Source: an uncultured beta proteobacterium (GTDB taxonomy: Bacteria; Pseudomonadota; Gammaproteobacteria; Burkholderiales; Burkholderiaceae_C). From it: a stretch of 56,760 nucleotides of DNA. Shown one piece after another: positions 1-26,751 of the stretch. The translations under genes and the position numbers were made by a program. The notes beneath the pieces were generated by a model. The model ran no database searches and was not told where the DNA came from. It worked only from the letters and a program-made list of their open reading frames with translations. Each line of letters opens with the position of its first letter. Positions within the stretch are counted from its first letter, which is position 1. The stretch lies in NCBI GenBank assembly GCA_903906695.1, contig CAIVLG010000270.1, positions 1 to 56,760 of the forward strand. Direction: 5' to 3'.

Positions 1-999
1 AAACAGGATTCAGCGCCCACTCCTGACGCGAGCCGTGCAGCAACCCAAAGCGCAACAGCTGATTCTGCCGACATCCCTGGTTGGGAGCGGAAGACGCTGG
101 AAAAACTGGTGTTCGCAGCGCTGACCGAGCAGCGCCAGGCGCGTCGCTGGCGCAATTTTGTGCGACTCGCCTGGCTGCTATTCCTGGCCGTGGTCGCCTG
201 GCTGGTGATCAGCCGCAATGGCCCGCCGACCGATAGCAGCACGCCGCACACGGCGATGGTGGAAATCAAGGGCGAAATTGCTGCGGGTGCCGAAGCCAGC
301 GCCGACTTGATAGTGGCCGCCCTTCGCAGTGCCTTTGAAGACGCGGGCTCGCAGGCCGTCGTCATGCTGATCAATTCGCCAGGTGGCAGCCCGGTGCAGG
401 CCGGCATCATCAATGACGAGATCAAGCGTCTCAAGGCCAAACACAACAAGCCGATCTACGCTGTGGTTGAAGAGTCGTGTGCCTCGGCCGCCTATTACAT
501 TGCGGCCGCCGCCGACAAGATATTTGTTGACAAGGCCAGCATCGTGGGCAGCATAGGTGTGTTGATGGATGGCTTTGGCTTTACCGGCTTGATGGACAAA
601 CTCGGGGTCGAGCGCCGTCTTATGACCGCCGGCGAGAACAAGGGTTTTCTTGACCCATTCAGCCCTCAAACCGAAAGGCAAAGGGTTTTTGCGCAGACCA
701 TGCTGGACCAGATTCACAAACAGTTCATCGAGGTCGTCAAAGCCGGTCGTGGCAAGCGGCTCAAGGAAACCAAGGAAACCTTTAGCGGCCTGTTCTGGAC
801 CGGTCAGCAGGCGATCGAGATGGGATTGGCCGATCAGCTTGGCAGTCTTGACTTTGTGGCGCGCGAAGTGGTCAAGGCGGAAGAAGTTGTCGACTACACG
901 CGCCGGGAAAATGTGGCAGAGCGGCTGGTCAAGCGTTTTGGCGCCGCCATCGGCGCAGGCGCGGTGCACGCGATTGCATCGATACCGGTGTTGCGCTGA
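1..999 (+). CDS. sppA: Signal peptide peptidase SppA, S49 family (5' end outside window)
   Basis: Membrane-bound serine protease that degrades cleaved signal peptides. The frame is open from base 1 with no stop until 997-999, so the true start lies upstream of the window; the GTG at 109 is internal, because the preceding residues (GWERKTLEKL) look like normal SppA N-terminal sequence. One membrane segment follows (about bases 160-220). The S49 landmarks are visible: NSPGGSPVQAG, the nucleophile region ESCASAAYYIAAAADKI with the serine after CA, and the probable general-base lysine in GENKGFLDPFSP. This is the short, single-domain form of the family. It converges on the methyltransferase gene with only 21 bases between the stop codons and no obvious terminator. 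Confidence 0.93.
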   Translation, partial: KQDSAPTPDASRAATQSATADSADIPGWERKTLEKLVFAALTEQRQARRWRNFVRLAWLLFLAVVAWLVISRNGPPTDSSTPHTAMVEIKGEIAAGAEASADLIVAALRSAFEDAGSQAVVMLINSPGGSPVQAGIINDEIKRLKAKHNKPIYAVVEESCASAAYYIAAAADKIFVDKASIVGSIGVLMDGFGFTGLMDKLGVERRLMTAGENKGFLDPFSPQTERQRVFAQTMLDQIHKQFIEVVKAGRGKRLKETKETFSGLFWTGQQAIEMGLADQLGSLDFVAREVVKAEEVVDYTRRENVAERLVKRFGAAIGAGAVHAIASIPVLR

Positions 1000-1020
1000 G
1001 CGCTTCGGCGGTCCGGGAAT

Positions 1021-1815
1021 TCAGCGTCCCAGGGCGAACACTGCCGGCGTCGAGTTATCAAGCGGAAAAGTCTTCTTACGCCAGTTCTTGATGCTGTCGC
1101 TGCAACAGACACTTCGGTCCAGGGTTATGCCGCTGCAGACTGCGAGACGGGTGTTGTGCTGCAGGGCATGCAGCAAGGTTTGCAACATCGCTGCGTTGCG
1201 GTAGGGAGTTTCGATGAACAACTGGGTTTGCCCGCTTTTCAGCGCGAGCGATTCGAGTTCCCTGACGCGCTCGGCACGCTCTGCCGAGTCTTGCGGCAGG
1301 TAGCCGGCAAAAGCAAAGTTTTGGCCATTGAGCCCGCTGGCGGCCAGCGCCAGCATCAGTGAGATCGGACCGACCAGCGGAATCACTTCAATTCCCAAAT
1401 CGTGGGCTGCCCGTACCACTGATGAACCAGGATCGGCTACGGCCGGCATGCCTGCTTCGCTGACCAGGCCGAGATCGCTTCCAGCGAGTGCTGGACCCAT
1501 CAGGTGGTGGGCATCGAAATTGCCGCTGTGATCGCCCTTCTTGTGCACCTGACGCGGCAGTTCCTGAATCTGCAAAGCCTGCAGCGGGCTGTCCAAGGGG
1601 ATGATCTGATTCACGCGTTTCAGGTAGGCGCGCGTTGATTTCGCGTTCTCGCAAATCCAGTACTGCAAGCTTGCGGCGAGCTCCAAGGTGCCCAAGGGCA
1701 TCGTCTGCCGCAAATCCACTTCCTGCTCGCAGCCAAAATCAAGTGGCGCCGGGACCAGGTAAAGCTTGCCTACGGTGGCCGGTGCAGCCGTGGTCTGTGT
1801 CGCGCTCATTGTCAC
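1021..1815 (-). CDS. SAM-dependent methyltransferase, tetrapyrrole methylase (RsmI-like) family
   Basis: Putative methyltransferase of the tetrapyrrole-methylase/RsmI superfamily. The protein has the family's central block, SEAGMPAVADPGSSVVRAA followed by LGIEVIPLVGP and SGLNGQNFAFAGYLP, around residues 115-185; these match SAM-binding loops of RsmI-type 16S rRNA 2'-O-methyltransferases. The N-terminal part differs from canonical RsmI (KLYLVPAPLDFGC in place of the usual start), so this is a paralogous branch and its substrate is not shown by the sequence. The start is either GTG at 1815, which overlaps the maf stop as GTGA, or ATG at 1809. The overlap implies translation coupled to maf in a two-gene minus-strand operon. 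Confidence 0.82.
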   Translation of the reverse strand: MTMSATQTTAAPATVGKLYLVPAPLDFGCEQEVDLRQTMPLGTLELAASLQYWICENAKSTRAYLKRVNQIIPLDSPLQALQIQELPRQVHKKGDHSGNFDAHHLMGPALAGSDLGLVSEAGMPAVADPGSSVVRAAHDLGIEVIPLVGPISLMLALAASGLNGQNFAFAGYLPQDSAERAERVRELESLALKSGQTQLFIETPYRNAAMLQTLLHALQHNTRLAVCSGITLDRSVCCSDSIKNWRKKTFPLDNSTPAVFALGR

Positions 1816-2405
1816 AATATCTTGACGCCGGCGGCGCGAAGCATGCGGCAGGTGCGGATCAGCGGCAAACCGACCAGCGCGGTTGGGTCGTCGTTCTCGA
1901 TCGACTCCAGCAGGGCGATGCCAAGCCCCTCGCTCTTGGCGCTGCCGGCGCAGTCATAAGGGGTTTCCGCCTGGAGGTAGGCCTCAATTTCTGCATCTGT
2001 GAGATCACGGAACCGAACTTTGACCGGGGCAAAATCCAGTTGCGCAAAGCCGGTATCTAGGCAGACCACGGCGACCGCCGTCTGAAAGGTCACGGTCTTG
2101 CCACGCATCTGCTGCAACTGGGCGATGGCGCGGCTGTGGTTGCCAGGTTTTCCAAGGGCATGGCCATCAAGATCGGCCACCTGGTCGGAGCCGATCACCA
2201 CGCAGTCCGGGAATTGTGCGGCCACGGCCTGCGCTTTGGCCATCGCCAATCGGCAGGCCAGTTGCCTCGGTGTCTCGGACCGCTGCGGTGTCTCATCAAC
2301 CTCCGGCGCGATCACCTCAAACGCGACGCGCAGGCGTTCCAGCATTTCACGGCGGTACTGCGAAGTGGAGCCCAGGATGAGTTTTCGATGAACCGGTTCG
2401 GACAT
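1812..2405 (-). CDS. maf: Maf-family nucleotide pyrophosphatase, YceF type
   Basis: House-cleaning nucleoside triphosphate pyrophosphatase. Family landmarks are LILGSTSQYRREML at the N-terminus, VVIGSDQVADLDG near residue 70, and PYDCAGSAKSEGLGIAL followed by DDPTALVGLPL toward the C-terminus. The CAGSxKSEGLG form is typical of the YceF branch, which hydrolyses 7-methyl-GTP, as opposed to the dTTP/UTP-specific YhdE branch. Length (197 aa) is normal. It is divergent from yceD, whose ATG candidates (2404 or 2431) lie at or just beyond its own start, so the two genes share a very short promoter region. In other betaproteobacteria maf also sits beside yceD-rpmF. Confidence 0.92.
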   Translation of the reverse strand: MSEPVHRKLILGSTSQYRREMLERLRVAFEVIAPEVDETPQRSETPRQLACRLAMAKAQAVAAQFPDCVVIGSDQVADLDGHALGKPGNHSRAIAQLQQMRGKTVTFQTAVAVVCLDTGFAQLDFAPVKVRFRDLTDAEIEAYLQAETPYDCAGSAKSEGLGIALLESIENDDPTALVGLPLIRTCRMLRAAGVKIL

Positions 2406-2430
2406 GCCCTCATTCTCTTACACTGTTGGC

Positions 2431-2979
2431 ATGAAACAAAAGGCGACCCCCGATAATCTGGACATCAAGGCCCTGGCACAGTCATCAGGCACGGTTGCTG
2501 GACACAATCCGCTGTCGGAATTTGGGCGTCTGATCCGCGAAACACAAGGCCTGGGCGCTGAAAAAAAACTGAATTGGTCGGTCCGTGGCGAACTTCGGAC
2601 CGATGCGCTGGGCACGCAGCAGGTCTGCTTGCATTTGGATGTCGATGTTGGCCTGCCACTGACCTGCCAGCGCTGCATGACGCCGGCCGAAATCGCGGTG
2701 GTCGTGCACCGCTCCTTCCGATTTGTCGACAACGAGGAGACTGCCGAGGCCCAAGACCCAGAGTCAGAGGACGATTTGCTCGTTCTGAGTGCTGATTTCA
2801 GTCTGACCGAGCTGATCCAGGACGAGGTTTTGATGGAGTTGCCGCTGATTCCGAAACACGAGGTGTGTCCAGTCAAGGTCAAACTGGCTGCGGTAGATAA
2901 GGGGTTTGGTGCGGCTGCCGAGGAACAAGGGCAGCCTTTTGCGCTGTTGGCCCAACTCAAAAACGGCAACTCAGGCTAA
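2431..2979 (+). CDS. yceD: YceD/DUF177 family protein
   Basis: DUF177 (YceD) protein, linked in bacteria and plastids to 23S rRNA accumulation and normally encoded just before rpmF, as here. The diagnostic segments are LPLTCQRCMTPAEIAV, with a CxxC pair, near residues 75-90, and LIQDEVLMELPLIPKHEVC near 130-150. An ATG at 2404 would add nine residues (MPSFSYTVG); I prefer ATG 2431 because it gives the usual N-terminus and leaves room for a promoter between it and divergent maf, but no clear Shine-Dalgarno sequence decides this. The C-terminus ends 115 bases before rpmF, and a separate promoter lies between them. Confidence 0.88.
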   Translation: MKQKATPDNLDIKALAQSSGTVAGHNPLSEFGRLIRETQGLGAEKKLNWSVRGELRTDALGTQQVCLHLDVDVGLPLTCQRCMTPAEIAVVVHRSFRFVDNEETAEAQDPESEDDLLVLSADFSLTELIQDEVLMELPLIPKHEVCPVKVKLAAVDKGFGAAAEEQGQPFALLAQLKNGNSG

Positions 2980-21785: not shown

Positions 21786-22193
21786 CCTTTACCTCTGGTT
21801 AACGCGACAGACGCATTCGGGCGACCGAAGCATCGCAAAGTTGTCACTACTTCATGAGTTACAACACCGTTCAACACAGGTCGGGAATCGGCTGGCACAA
21901 CTGATCCAGTACAAGCAGGGTACGCGTTGTCCCGCGCTAAGGGCGGTCGCAGCTTCCAAGGCAGCGGATGTGAAGGCCGTATCTGATGCACCGCGTCAAT
22001 ACGGGCTTTGCAGTTCGAACATTTTTTTGCAGCGACCCGATGACCATTGCGCGGCAGAGGCAGTTGATGCGTCAACGTTGTGCCGATTTTGCAGAAGATC
22101 AATGCTTGCAATTTGTACCGGCTTGATAGGCTGCTGTCGGTTGTACGTGAAAATACGGTTATGCGGCGCTGTGCGTCCTGAAAGCGGGTGTCA
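21786..22193. other. Intergenic region before prc
   Basis: 408 bases in which I see no protein gene, RNA gene or repeat. It is less GC-rich than its flanks and must contain the prc promoter. The best but unconvincing candidate is TTGATA near 22123 with AT-rich sequence around 22149-22160. No terminator for the preceding operon is evident. Confidence 0.5.
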
Positions 22194-24377
22194 ATGAAAC
22201 AGAAACTTCTATGGCTGATTTTTGCCTTGGCGTTTGTAGCGCAAGGTGCAGCGCTGGACGTGGGTATTGCATATCCACCAGAGCTGAAGCCGGAGCAAAC
22301 TGAGGCCAAGGCGGCACACATGGCGGCCGAGCTCTTGTCTCGGTACCATTACAAGGCGGTGCCACTTGACGAGACTTTGTCGGGCAAGATATTCGACCAA
22401 TATCTGAAGTCTCTTGACCCCGAGAAACTCTTCTTTGTGCAGACCGACGTTGACCGTCTCTCTGTCAATCGAAGCAGGCTGGGCGATGCCATCCGCAAAG
22501 AAGATCTTTCCGTTGCGTTCGCGATGTTCAATCTCTACGAGCATCGCTTCGTTGAGCGTTTTACTTACGCTCGCAACTTGTTGCAAAAGGGATTTGATTT
22601 CGACAAGAACGAAAACTACCAATATTCACGCGACAAAGGGGCTTGGCCGCAAAGTGAAGGCGATGCGAACGAACTCTGGCGCCAGCGCGTCAAGAACGAC
22701 TGGTTGCGGCTCAAACTGGCTGGCAAGGACGACAAAAGCATCGTCGAAATACTGGACAAGCGTTACCAGCACGTGCTCAAGCGCGTAGGCCGGATCAAGA
22801 GCGAGGACGCCTTTCAGACCTACATGAATGCCTATACCACGGCGATCGAGCCCCACACCAACTACCTGGGTCCAAAGGCGGCAGCAGATTTCGACGTTTC
22901 CATGAAGCTTTCTCTGGTCGGGATCGGAGCAGTGCTGTCTGAGATCGATGAGTACACGACGATACGAGAAGTCGTCGCGGGAGGGCCTGCAAGCCTCTCA
23001 GGGCAATTGAAAATCGGAGACCGCATTGTTGGCGTCGCCCAGGGCAAAGACGGTGTCATGACGGACGTCATGGGTTGGCGTCTGGACGACACGGTCGAAC
23101 TGATACGCGGTGCAACCGATTCGGTCGTGCGTCTGGACGTGCTGCCGGCGGATGTCGGACCGGATGGCAAACACAAACTGGTATGGCTCATTCGAAAGCC
23201 TATCAGCATGAAGGAGCAGTCTGCCAAGTCGTCCGTGCAATCCATCATGGAGGGCAATATCGCGCGTCGCATTGGGGTGATTTCCCTGCCGTCCTTCTAT
23301 GAGGATTTCAGCGCCAGACAGAATGGCGATCCGAATTACAAGAGCGCGACCCGCGACGTGACCAGACTGTTGGATGAATTGAAAAAGGAAAAGGTTGACG
23401 GCGTGCTGGTCGATCTGCGCAATAACGGCGGCGGTTCACTGTTGCAGGCGATTGAACTCACCAGCTTGTTTGTGGGTAAGGGGCCGGTCGTGCAGCAGCG
23501 CAACGCAAGCGGCCAGATATCGGTGGAGCGCGGCACACGGGCCGACGTCGCTTGGGATGGCCCCCTGGGCATCCTGATCAACCGGGGCTCGGCATCGGCA
23601 TCCGAGATTTTTGCTGCAGCCATTCAGGACTACGGTCGCGGCCTGATCATGGGGGAACGCAGTTTTGGCAAAGGCACAGTGCAAACCATGGTCAATCTCG
23701 ATCAAATCGCCAAGAGCAGCAAACCTCAGCTTGGTGAACTGAAAATGACCGTTGCGCAGTTCTTTCGCGTCAATGGAGGGACGACACAACTGCGCGGAGT
23801 CAAGCCCGATATCGACTTCCCGGCGGTTTTCGACGGGAGTGATTTTGGGGAGTCGAGCTTTGACAATGCGCTCCCTTGGGCGCAGATCAAGGCGGCAGAT
23901 TATTCTCCGGTCGGTGACTTGGAACGGATGCTGCCGATTCTATTGACGATGCATGAAGCCCGTGTCAAGAATGACCAGGATTTCCGCAACCTGCAAGAAG
24001 ACATTGCCGAATCGAAACTGCAGCGCAAGAAGAATCTGGTCTCGCTGAACGAGGCTGAAAGACGCAAGGAACGTGACGCGCTGGAGGCGCGACTGAAATC
24101 TCGCAAGTTGCAGACCCACAGTGCAATAGCCGCCTCTGGGGACGCGCTCGGAAAAACGGATGTGCGAGAGTCGGGGAGTGTGCCCACGGATGACGGTCTG
24201 CAGGCTGACGAACGCACGCTCAGCAAGGAATTGGCGAATGAAAAGGTGCGCAGGGACGCCAAAGATGTCTTGTTGATCGAAGCTGGCCGCATCATTGGCG
24301 ACGAAGTAACTGTGCTGAAGAGCAGCGTCAAGCTTGCAGCCCAACCCAAGCCGGCTTCTTTGCCGATGCCGGAATGA
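22194..24377 (+). CDS. prc: Tail-specific protease Prc (Tsp), S41 family
   Basis: Periplasmic carboxy-terminal processing protease that degrades proteins with nonpolar tails and trims envelope proteins. A signal peptide (LLWLIFALAFVAQGAA) is followed by an N-terminal helical domain, a PDZ domain near residues 230-320 (VGIGAVLSEIDEYTTI), and the S41 core. The catalytic Ser-Lys pair is S468 in RGSASASEIFAAA and K493 in RSFGKGTVQTM. A charged C-terminal domain with coiled-coil character follows (LQRKKNLVSLNEAERRKERD). Start ATG 22194; the GTG at 22188 is an alternative. Length is 727 aa, slightly longer than E. coli Prc. Confidence 0.95.
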   Translation: MKQKLLWLIFALAFVAQGAALDVGIAYPPELKPEQTEAKAAHMAAELLSRYHYKAVPLDETLSGKIFDQYLKSLDPEKLFFVQTDVDRLSVNRSRLGDAIRKEDLSVAFAMFNLYEHRFVERFTYARNLLQKGFDFDKNENYQYSRDKGAWPQSEGDANELWRQRVKNDWLRLKLAGKDDKSIVEILDKRYQHVLKRVGRIKSEDAFQTYMNAYTTAIEPHTNYLGPKAAADFDVSMKLSLVGIGAVLSEIDEYTTIREVVAGGPASLSGQLKIGDRIVGVAQGKDGVMTDVMGWRLDDTVELIRGATDSVVRLDVLPADVGPDGKHKLVWLIRKPISMKEQSAKSSVQSIMEGNIARRIGVISLPSFYEDFSARQNGDPNYKSATRDVTRLLDELKKEKVDGVLVDLRNNGGGSLLQAIELTSLFVGKGPVVQQRNASGQISVERGTRADVAWDGPLGILINRGSASASEIFAAAIQDYGRGLIMGERSFGKGTVQTMVNLDQIAKSSKPQLGELKMTVAQFFRVNGGTTQLRGVKPDIDFPAVFDGSDFGESSFDNALPWAQIKAADYSPVGDLERMLPILLTMHEARVKNDQDFRNLQEDIAESKLQRKKNLVSLNEAERRKERDALEARLKSRKLQTHSAIAASGDALGKTDVRESGSVPTDDGLQADERTLSKELANEKVRRDAKDVLLIEAGRIIGDEVTVLKSSVKLAAQPKPASLPMPE

Positions 24378-24597: not shown

Positions 24598-25010
24598 CTG
24601 CTACCGGTATGAGACGCTACGGTCAACACCGTGGTGAGAGCGCAGGCCAGACCGGCCTGGCAGTGTAGCCAGATTCTTTGCACTACTTTACGGCTGCTGC
24701 ACCAAAGGCTGGTGCTTCCTCAACTACATTTTGTCGGTTCGGCGACGATTGCTCAGAAAGCAAGACCTACTCTTGATTTCTCCCATTTTCGAAATGCAAG
24801 AAATATAACCATGAGACAGGCAAATGGCCTCTTTGCATTTCCGGGTATCCTTTCGACTGGATCGAGCTATGTTGTAACGGTGGCGATCCAACCGATGGGA
24901 CAAACCTGAACGATGGCAAGCGCCAGCGGGACCGTGCTTGCCAACCTGATGGCGTCTGTCGTGGTGAAATGTAGCTGATTGCCGAAGATTTGATTCAATC
25001 CAAATTCCAC
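24598..25010. other. Intergenic region before the DUF2844-DUF3443 pair
   Basis: 413 bases without a recognisable gene. It includes an AT-rich patch at about 24774-24840 and then GC-richer sequence. I looked for a riboswitch-like core or a clear promoter and found neither. The left edge is the break point of the CBS remnant, so part of this region may be further decayed sequence. Confidence 0.5.
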
Positions 25011-25514
25011 ATGAAATATCTGTACTCTCTGTATTTGAACCGGCTGCTGCTCATCAGCTTGCTGATGCTGGCCTGTGCCGGCGACGTGATGGCCACGCTG
25101 GGGCAGGCGCCGTCGGCAACGGTTTCGACCGGTTCGGCGGCGTCTCAAGGGTCGCTTAGCCGGAAACTGGCGCTGGCGCCAGCGGTCCCGTCCAATCTGT
25201 ACACCCTGAGCGAGAGCCAGCTTGAAACCGGCACGACGTTAAGGGAGTACGCCACGCCGGCAGGCGTGGTCTTTGCCGTAGTTTGGCGCGGCCCGGTGTT
25301 GCCTGACCTCAATGCCGTGCTGGGTGGCTATTTCAATGCCTTCAAGGTCGGAGTCGAACAGGCCAGGGCCAGCGGCCGGCGTGGCGCCCCGGCCAGCGTT
25401 CAACGCGATGGCCTGGTTCTGAAATCGAGTGGTCGCATGCGAAATTTTTCCGGTTACGCCTACGCGCCTGACCTGATCCCAAGCGGAGTCAGCATCAATG
25501 ATGTACTTCAATAA
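25011..25514 (+). CDS. DUF2844 family secreted protein
   Basis: Exported protein of unknown function, in a family that regularly precedes DUF3443 genes in Burkholderiales (recalled from annotation, not searched). A signal peptide is seen from ATG 25011 (NRLLLISLLMLACAGDVMA). The mature part has the DUF2844 core: YTLSESQLETGTTLREYATP, then GVVFAVVWRGPVLPDLNAVLG, YFNAF, and a C-terminal SSGRMRNFSGYAYAPDLIPSG. A TTG at 24990 would extend it by seven residues. The gene overlaps the longest reading of the DUF3443 frame by 17 bases, so the two are probably co-translated and act together in the periplasm or outside the cell. Confidence 0.85.
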   Translation: MKYLYSLYLNRLLLISLLMLACAGDVMATLGQAPSATVSTGSAASQGSLSRKLALAPAVPSNLYTLSESQLETGTTLREYATPAGVVFAVVWRGPVLPDLNAVLGGYFNAFKVGVEQARASGRRGAPASVQRDGLVLKSSGRMRNFSGYAYAPDLIPSGVSINDVLQ

Positions 25515-26751
25515 TTTCATGATTCGCACACTGTGTGTGGGCTTGCTGGTGAGCCTGATCAGCGCCTGCGGCGGTGGTGGCGGATCAACCAGCCCGTCGA
25601 GTCCGTCAAGCCCATCAACCCCGGTTGCAAGCAGCAACGTGATTCCGTTGACCGTCGATCTGGGCCCCGCCGGCAACGACGTCAATCAACTGTTTGCCAG
25701 TGTCACCCTGTGCCAACCCGGCAGTACCAGCCAGTGCCAGACCATCGACCACGTGATGGTCGATACCGGCTCAACCGGCCTGCGGGTGTTTTCCGCGGCC
25801 ATCGGGTCTGCCGTGAAACTCCCAAGGCTCAACGCTGCCAGCGGCTTCCCTTTGCTCAACTGTGTACAGTTTGTCGATAACACCTATGCCTGGGGCCCGG
25901 TGGCTGCGGCCGACGTCGTGCTGGGCAGCAAGACCGCTGCCAGCGTACCGATTCAAATCATTGCCGACCCGGCCTACAACGCCTTGGCCGGTCCTTGCTC
26001 TTCTTCCGGCACTGCCACCGCGATTACCAATGCTGCGGTCCTGGGTGCCAACGGCATTCTGGGGCTGGGACTGTTCAAGGAGGATTGCGGCTCATGGTGC
26101 GCCACGCAGCTTGCCAACGGCGTCTATTTCGCCTGCTCCAACGCGGCCTGCAAAGCCACGGTCCCGACCACGGTCAGCCTGGCGAATCAGATCAAGCACC
26201 CGGTACCTCTTTTTTCCGCCGACAACAACGGTGTGTTGATTGATTTGCCAGCTGTCAGTTCAGCCGGTGCAGCCAATTTGAGTGGCTCGCTGATTTTTGG
26301 CGTCGGTACCCAATCCAACAATCAGTTTGCCTCGGGCTCGGTGCTGACCACTGACTCATCCGGCAATATCACAACCCAATTCGCCGGGCGATCGCTTAGC
26401 ACCAGCTTTATTGATACCGGTTCCAACGGTCTTTACTTCGATTCAGCGGCGGTAACGACCTGCCCCAAAGGCGGAGCTGCCGATGGCTTCTACTGTCCAA
26501 GTGCTGTCACCGCCTTGTCGGCTGTACTGGTCGGTGCCAACGCGGCGAAGGCCCCCGTCGCCTTCTCGATCGGCAATGCCTTGACGCTGCTTTCCAATTC
26601 GTCCATGTCCGTACTTCCAACCCTGTCCGGGCCCATGAATGACTCCCAAACTTTCGATTGGGGTCTTCCTTTCTATTACGGCCGCCGCGTCTTCATGGGG
26701 ATTGAGGGGCAGGCCTCAACCCAGGGCACAGGGCCGTTCTACGCCTTTTGA
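25498..26751 (+). CDS. DUF3443 lipoprotein with pepsin-like aspartic protease signatures
   Basis: Putative outer-membrane or surface lipoprotein of family DUF3443. The signal peptide ends in a lipobox, SLISACGGGGG, followed by a Ser/Pro-rich linker. ATG 25519 (MIRTLCVGLLVSLISAC) gives a more typical lipoprotein leader than ATG 25498. The body has two DTGS motifs 217 residues apart, D89 (HVMVDTGSTGL) and D306 (SFIDTGSNGLYF), counted from ATG 25498. Between them lie NGILGLGLF near residue 185 and GSLIFGVG near 263, and hydrophobic pairs precede each DTGS. This order matches the two-lobed pepsin (A1) architecture. The protease assignment is inference; the motifs are directly visible. Six or more cysteines in the N-lobe could form disulfides. 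The RND pump genes start 8 bases downstream. Confidence 0.85.
   Translation: MMYFNNFMIRTLCVGLLVSLISACGGGGGSTSPSSPSSPSTPVASSNVIPLTVDLGPAGNDVNQLFASVTLCQPGSTSQCQTIDHVMVDTGSTGLRVFSAAIGSAVKLPRLNAASGFPLLNCVQFVDNTYAWGPVAAADVVLGSKTAASVPIQIIADPAYNALAGPCSSSGTATAITNAAVLGANGILGLGLFKEDCGSWCATQLANGVYFACSNAACKATVPTTVSLANQIKHPVPLFSADNNGVLIDLPAVSSAGAANLSGSLIFGVGTQSNNQFASGSVLTTDSSGNITTQFAGRSLSTSFIDTGSNGLYFDSAAVTTCPKGGAADGFYCPSAVTALSAVLVGANAAKAPVAFSIGNALTLLSNSSMSVLPTLSGPMNDSQTFDWGLPFYYGRRVFMGIEGQASTQGTGPFYAF

Follow-up and report, generated by a model that had tools for sequence, protein, structure and literature searches.

The DUF3443 Locus and Its Product

The window considered in this article is the whole stretch of 56,760 nucleotides of contig CAIVLG010000270.1 (assembly GCA_903906695.1), from an uncultured beta proteobacterium. 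On its forward strand, positions 25498..26751 encode P0001, a lipoprotein of 417 amino acids (plus stop codon) that belongs to the family DUF3443 and is a candidate aspartic protease of the pepsin fold; a gene of the family DUF2844 lies next to it. The match of P0001 to the Pfam model of DUF3443 (PF11925) has an E-value of 8.3e-130 and 433.4 bits against a gathering cut-off of 25, covers model positions 3-367 of 367 and starts at residue 45.

P0001 begins with a lipoprotein signal peptide (25498..25569) which, according to the lipobox rule, ends in LISA-C24 and is followed by a Gly/Ser/Pro-rich tether; about 20 residues separate the Cys predicted to carry the lipid from the start of the DUF3443 match. 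Conservation was followed in an alignment of 78 rows, made up of P0001, 72 rows from genome and related-locus searches and five named plasmid records, in which one gene is counted twice (L047/L056, overlapping loci; L and G numbers denote loci and genomes). The initial set of DUF3443 rows consisted of 71 hits to open reading frames (ORFs) minus five duplicates and ten partial or split ORFs (L005, L032, L054/L060, L055/L061). The lipobox Cys is present in its column in 72 of the 78 rows.

The original prediction had described two DTGS motifs (D89 and D306), 217 residues apart and each preceded by a hydrophobic strand, which the translation bears out together with the NGILGLG placed between them (residues 185-191) and the GSLIFG ahead of the second (residues 263-268, 26284..26301). 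The putative catalytic motif of the N-lobe, D89-T-G-S (HVMVDTGS), maps to 25762..25773 and that of the C-lobe, D306-T-G-S (SFIDTGS), to 26413..26424. Across the alignment D89 is kept in 77 rows, T/S90 in 78, G91 in 75 and S92 in 77, while D306, G308 and S/T309 occur in every row. The distance between both Asp has a median of 213 residues (range 200-268) in the 82 DUF3443 rows surveyed for spacing and gene adjacency, where domain hits shorter than 300 aa were left out; in pepsin it is 183 residues (32 to 215).

Other features were absent from that prediction, namely F125, G389, a basic residue at the Trp39 position, a Cys-rich mature domain and the neighboring DUF2844 gene. In the flap region F125...W132-G133 (25870..25896), F125 occupies the position of pepsin Tyr75. 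Residue 125 (Phe in 70 rows, Tyr in 8) is separated from the flap Gly by 7 residues in 69 of the 78 rows and by 8 in the other 9, P0001 included; the distance counted on the pepsin sequence from Tyr75 to Gly82 is 7. R96 (25783-25785) lies at Asp+7 in the sequence, the position which we take to be that of Trp39 in pepsin. The first psi-loop has the hydrophobic-hydrophobic-Gly arrangement, I187-L188-G189 (26056..26064), with Ile (54 rows), Val (12), Leu (9), Thr (2) or Met (1) at 187, Leu (63), Ile (14) or Val (1) at 188 and an invariant G189. The second psi-loop, which together with the last strands spans F386-D-W-G389-L-P-F-Y-Y-G-R-R-V-F399 (26653..26694), does not strictly follow this arrangement: Asp occupies position 387 in 53 of the 78 rows, residue 388 is Trp, Leu, Phe, Tyr or Ile in all of them, and the invariant G389 is followed by Leu in 56. 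G268 is likewise kept in all 78 rows and P391 in 69. The mature domain contains ten Cys in 52 rows and eight in 11, and eight Cys columns are each kept in at least 67 of the 78 rows, which suggests disulfides suited to the cell envelope.

The named relatives of DUF3443 come mostly from Burkholderia-type bacteria and Ramlibacter, with one from a Gallionella metagenome-assembled genome (MAG) and one from a Myxococcales MAG; the family was also found in one genome of another class (L136). Viral contigs gave two pattern matches and no DUF3443 relative, and L064 searched against plasmids gave no match.

The occurrence of the motif pair by chance was estimated on a background of 701 open frames of 250 aa or longer, drawn from all six frames of the window and of the fetched loci; many of these open frames are not genes, and the aspartic-protease-like families had been removed. 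With the pattern [hydrophobic]2-D[TS]G[ST], and a pair defined as two motifs 150-260 residues apart, no background frame contained a pair and 3 of the 701 contained a single motif. The same strict pattern found a pair in 72 of 129 frames of aspartic-protease-like families and none in 57.

Bridging Families and Profile Evidence for the Fold

Homology of DUF3443 to members of the pepsin fold with a solved structure was detected only jointly with bridging families. The DUF3443 protein of L047 matches PE-PGRS_C (PF20729) over the N-lobe (E 7e-6, model positions 12-157 of 265); such matches occur in 2 of 56 rows, which are one gene in overlapping loci, and the best score obtained by DUF3443 (26.0 bits) is under the 33-bit cut-off. 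The domain of PE_PGRS16 was solved with a pepsin fold as PDB entry 4ehc (PMC4758615, PMC6819658).

Family M (L128-L132) consists of unannotated lipoproteins reached by means of sub-cut-off matches to DUF3443. Sub-cut-off matches to PF20729 led to family F (L085, L133-L143, L145), whose members have signal-peptide-like starts and occur in other classes of the phylum, and to the Xanthomonas sacchari plasmid protein P0002. In the searches for bridging sequences PF00026 was found in 6 of 349, 15 of 48 and 1 of 80 genomes, and PF20729 in 2 of 150, none above the cut-off. Families M and F and P0002 were merged into A3 (19 sequences), with F hits shorter than 230 aa dropped and L144 and L146 excluded. 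Members of A3 matched PE-PGRS_C in 13 of 19 cases (best E 7.2e-9), Asp_protease_2 in 14 (best 1.2e-5) and DUF3443 in 5 (best 6e-5). Searched against a PDB set of 177,635 sequences, the A3 profile retrieved four rows, with 4ehc at the top (0.0026) and three unrelated entries at 0.17-1.2.

Profile-profile comparison by hhalign paired DUF3443 with A3 (94.3%, E 1e-7) and with family M (93.1%, E 3.3e-7). Column-shuffled profiles were used as controls, 60 for each pair of whole profiles and 80 for each pair of lobes. Labeling DUF3443 as D, the bridging families as M and F, and two accepted PF00026 groups as S and B, the scores of D were 53.0 with M (null maximum 24.1), 38.0 with F (23.3), 31.3 with B (23.1) and 25.4 with S (23.4), and in each case 0 of 60 shuffles scored as high. 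The comparison of M with S was not above its null (49 of 60 shuffles as high). S and B likewise miss each other directly (4/60), yet each finds pepsin at 97%, so that a low score in a direct comparison does not speak for another fold.

At the level of single lobes, the DUF3443 N-lobe matched the A3 N-lobe (96.6%, E 6.1e-10) and the pepsin-type N-lobe (27.7 against a null maximum of 19.4, over 13 columns), and the C-lobe reached 28.5 with a three-sequence pepsin C-lobe profile (null maximum 23.4) at a probability of just 28%; none of the 80 controls scored as high in any of the three comparisons. The C-lobe alignment runs in register over 56 columns and sets GSLIFG on the GSVVLLGG that precedes the second Asp of pepsin, and D306 on pepsin D215.

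Joint profiles were then compared with the PDB set at E up to 10. A5 consists of 10 sequences of DUF3443 and 12 of the F/M type, and neither PF00026 nor eukaryotic sequences are part of it; its DUF3443 rows were hand-picked, partly for their matches to protease families, and include those with sub-cut-off matches of this kind (L047, L027, L028, L150). Aspartic proteases accounted for 33 of the 34 rows retrieved by A5, the remaining one (2n84) being labeled uncharacterized. The matches were aspergillopepsin (2.6e-5), candidapepsin (6e-4), penicillopepsin (0.0048) and 4ehc (0.073), and further ones to rhizopuspepsin, to a Trichoderma protease and to 27 beta-secretase sequences, the latter near-duplicates with E-values of 0.36 or above. 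E-values for the best stretch are weaker, being 9.9e-5 for aspergillopepsin, 0.14 for candidapepsin and 0.02 for penicillopepsin. The match with aspergillopepsin spans the DTGS, the flap and the first psi-loop, and that with candidapepsin spans both Asp motifs. A6, which repeats the design of A5 with ten other DUF3443 rows chosen regardless of protease-family matches, retrieved six rows, all of them aspartic proteases (aspergillopepsin 5.4e-6, rhizopuspepsin 0.0013). A7, in which these 12 F/M-type sequences stand alone, retrieved 4ehc (0.0032) and aspergillopepsin (0.29) and nothing else. Since adding DUF3443 moves aspergillopepsin from 0.29 to 5.4e-6, DUF3443 itself carries pepsin signal. The A6/A7 control strengthens the fold and not the activity.

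Several observations concern the bridging families themselves. L128-L132 and L087-L089 contain ORFs of about 650-680 aa that are lipoprotein-like and have aspartic-protease-like units. In L088 and L089 the units are in tandem, the first with EIDTGS...FDSGA and the second with VDTGSVGLR...YDTGT, and Pfam gave sub-cut-off matches to Asp_protease_2 and DUF3443 alone; in L087 there is a single unit, the C-terminal part after it is different, and Pfam gave nothing for this protein. The unannotated proteins of L085, L133-L145 and L107:2330-3514 have signal-peptide-like starts, carry DTGST plus a second DTG and are related to PE-PGRS_C; within one family, 9 of 51 genomes contain them. In L136 a DUF3443 gene (135-1373, minus strand) lies divergently beside an aspartic-protease-like gene of family F (1444-2526, plus strand), an arrangement seen in none of the other F-family loci among L085 and L133-L146.

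DUF2844, the Proposed Partner Gene

The DUF2844 gene of the window (24990..25514, forward strand, with a possible start at the ATG at 25011) encodes a protein with a signal peptide that matches PF11005 with an E-value of 5.5e-38. Its 3' end overlaps the start of the DUF3443 gene by 17 nt, and a GGAG lies 9 nt upstream of the ATG at 25498. DUF3443 is above the cut-off in 48 of 399 genomes of the order and DUF2844 in 44, all of them within the 48 (Fisher p 2e-54, kinship ignored), the two 399-genome searches being taken as the same genome set. Among the four genomes with DUF3443 only, G530 has a DUF2844 match interrupted by a stop, and a custom DUF2844 profile located DUF2844 beside DUF3443 in both G358 and G530; in the other two (G471, G561) the DUF3443 pieces are short or at a contig edge.

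Both genes are also neighbors. DUF2844 lies at most 600 nt from DUF3443 on the same strand in 73 of the 82 rows, before it in 69 and after it in 4; some of these loci were fetched by DUF2844 itself, so that the number of genomes in which both families occur is the fairer measure. Adjacency kept despite a reversed order is the pattern that would be expected of a functional pair. Regarding the nine rows without an adjacent DUF2844, one is a gene also contained in L056, which has DUF2844, and two are second tandem copies whose first copy has it. In the six others (L004, L041, L042, L136, L150, L151) DUF2844 was not seen beside DUF3443; the sequence past the DUF3443 3' end is just 134 nt in L136, and Pfam detected no DUF2844 across the whole genomes of G717 (L042) and G773 (L041). 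Over 76 rows, DUF2844 proteins conserve an A-x-L-G motif (Ala in 68, Leu in 71, Gly in 72) at the likely mature N-terminus, as placed by a predicted cleavage site.

Variations of this arrangement were noted. G526 has six DUF2844 matches versus four of DUF3443, and two of the former are about 2 kb apart with no DUF3443 match listed beside them. On the Burkholderia glumae plasmid pBGF2 (L148) the DUF2844-DUF3443 pair, with DTAS as the first motif, is flanked by cheZ on one side and on the other by a VOC gene, after which comes flhB, within a chemotaxis/flagellar cluster; a functional link with this neighborhood was discarded, as it is the only case. A DUF3443 subgroup on plasmids of Caballeronia and Burkholderia vietnamiensis (L150, L151) has no DUF2844 nearby, and in both a gene for a TAXI-type TRAP solute-binding protein adjoins. 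A gene that presumably encodes a tail-specific (C-terminal processing), Tsp-like protease occurs near the pair at 22188-24377 of the window and at L007:5402-7537. Neither this protease nor the RND efflux genes of the window were retained as partners: among 17 loci with flanks of differing length, relatives (phmmer, E up to 1e-20) were found for the protease in L007 only and for the efflux genes in none.

Proposed Biological Role and Alternative Explanations

Taken together, DUF3443 is probably an aspartic endopeptidase from the pepsin/retropepsin clan, exported, anchored to lipid and built as a single chain with two lobes, that works with DUF2844. According to this model, DUF3443 would be exported, then attached to lipid and would then form disulfides. 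D89 and D306, one per lobe, would act jointly as the catalytic pair of a cleft that the N-lobe flap, with Phe or Tyr at the Tyr75 position, would cover during cleavage, and the co-encoded and exported DUF2844 could be a dedicated substrate, an inhibitor or a trans-acting pro-region. The pepsin-type two-lobed fold of the original prediction is supported at the level of the clan, the lobe comparisons and the retrieval of fungal pepsins by joint profiles favoring the placement of DUF3443 in clan AA, with the pepsin fold. Membership in peptidase family A1 proper (PF00026) is not supported, considering the lack of PF00026 matches and the Arg/Lys at the Trp39 position.

A number of results weigh against the protease assignment. 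DUF3443 alone retrieved no chain from the PDB set at E up to 10, whether by phmmer with P0001 or L047 or by hmmsearch with the family profile; PF00026 was not among the 25 families listed of 27 for 56 DUF3443 members (E up to 1), nor did it appear in any of the 35 DUF3443 proteins scanned singly, and hhalign with thin pepsin profiles gave weak local motif matches, nothing more. In the direct HMM-HMM comparison the whole DUF3443 profile scored 22.1 with pepsin, barely over the null maximum of 22.0 (0/60). Families M and F were not clearly over their nulls with pepsin (4/60 and 3/60 shuffles as high, respectively), the DUF3443 C-lobe was not above the null with the A3 C-lobe (8/80), and the match between the N- and C-lobes of DUF3443 (24.5, null maximum 19.1, 0/80) involves 17 columns only. 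In addition, residue 96 at the Trp39 position is basic in all 78 rows (Arg in 75, Lys in 3), and Phe rather than Tyr is found at the Tyr75 position in 70. In the copy of the Myxococcales MAG (L004:5956-7305), possibly a natural inactive form, Gly replaces D89 and Ala replaces S92, and its locus of 13 kb showed no DUF2844.

The main rival to the protease reading is a catalytically dead binder on the pepsin fold, which would bind a ligand, DUF2844 or some other, in the former active-site cleft and leave it uncut. The solved relative PE_PGRS16 has a pepsin fold but showed no activity (PMC6819658), and none of the Phe75 homologs had been shown to be active as of 2009 according to PMC2761423, which also describes Phe as a common Tyr75 replacement. 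The non-standard Arg/Lys96 and Phe125 fit a binder, as do the replacement of G91 by Ala in 3 of the 78 rows (among them L148 and L149, both Burkholderia records) and the loss of D89 in L004, and a tight pairing with DUF2844 would suit it too. However, a binder would have no evident reason to keep both D89 and D306, as well as the neighboring T/S and G, almost without exception; this conservation favors an active enzyme, and we regard the dead binder as rather unlikely. A beta fold of another type, with DTGS motifs of independent origin, for example that of a non-peptidase beta-rich envelope protein, would account for the failure of DUF3443 alone to match PF00026 or PDB entries directly. It appears very improbable in view of the pepsins that the joint profiles pull from the entire PDB set, the improvement of the best one when DUF3443 is added, the N-lobe match that no control equaled and an order of landmarks that is the same as in pepsin.

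A pepsin-type pro-segment is about 44 residues long, and the stretch ahead of the domain in P0001 is too short for one, which makes control in trans an appealing hypothesis. Tentatively, and with somewhat more doubt than confidence, DUF2844-DUF3443 may constitute a two-gene exported pepsin system with zymogen-like control in trans, where DUF2844 acts as inhibitor or pro-region, or else as dedicated substrate, and may form, along with the two exported families and PE-PGRS_C, one branch of a broader and mostly unannotated group of extracytoplasmic bacterial pepsins. DUF3443 would then add a lipid-anchored, Cys-rich family to the bacterial pepsins and bear on the origin of bilobed pepsins in bacteria, and DUF2844, as its specific partner, would be a lead to what DUF3443 cuts or to what controls it. 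No publication naming DUF3443, PF11925 or DUF2844 was found among the papers searched; the family may already have been recognized in subscription papers, in the superfamily lines of InterPro or on the clan pages of Pfam.

Comparison With Known Systems

Bacterial pepsin homologs are described as rare and cytoplasmic in two reports (PMC2761423, PMC6819658). They lack a predicted signal peptide and were assigned to the cytoplasm, disulfides were not expected in them, and one probably secreted bacterial acid peptidase of unknown sequence was mentioned (PMC2761423). Like the bacterial A1 pepsins (shewasin type, PF00026), DUF3443 would have two lobes, and it has two Asp motifs and a first hydrophobic-hydrophobic-Gly. 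Leu occurs at the Asp303 equivalent in Shewanella and Colwellia pepsins, and Phe75 in those of Sinorhizobium and Marinomonas (Rawlings and Bateman, PMC2761423), resembling the Leu after the second psi-loop Gly (56/78) and the Phe125 of DUF3443, respectively. Unlike these cytoplasmic enzymes, DUF3443 has a lipobox and eight conserved Cys columns, with no PF00026 match seen.

RloA, of the RloA/RimB system of Pseudomonas, is similar to DUF3443 in being an exported clan AA aspartic peptidase of a Gram-negative bacterium, from an uncharacterized family and encoded in an operon with partners (PMC12239564). The description of RloA centers on a single DTG motif at the N-terminus and calls it retropepsin-like, whereas DUF3443 has two DTG-type motifs per chain.

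PecA is a surface aspartic protease of mycobacteria that cuts off PE domains and whose self-cleavage depends on its catalytic Asp; it has been called unique for its location (PMC6819658). The PE-PGRS_C proteins, PecA (PE_PGRS35) and PE_PGRS16, are bacterial, exported and surface-located and carry two motifs (DTG, DSG) in one chain, as would be the case for DUF3443. PecA is a substrate of type VII secretion with PE and linker domains (PMC6819658), whereas DUF3443 belongs to the lipoproteins and is paired with DUF2844. By known function, PecA is the system closest to DUF3443.

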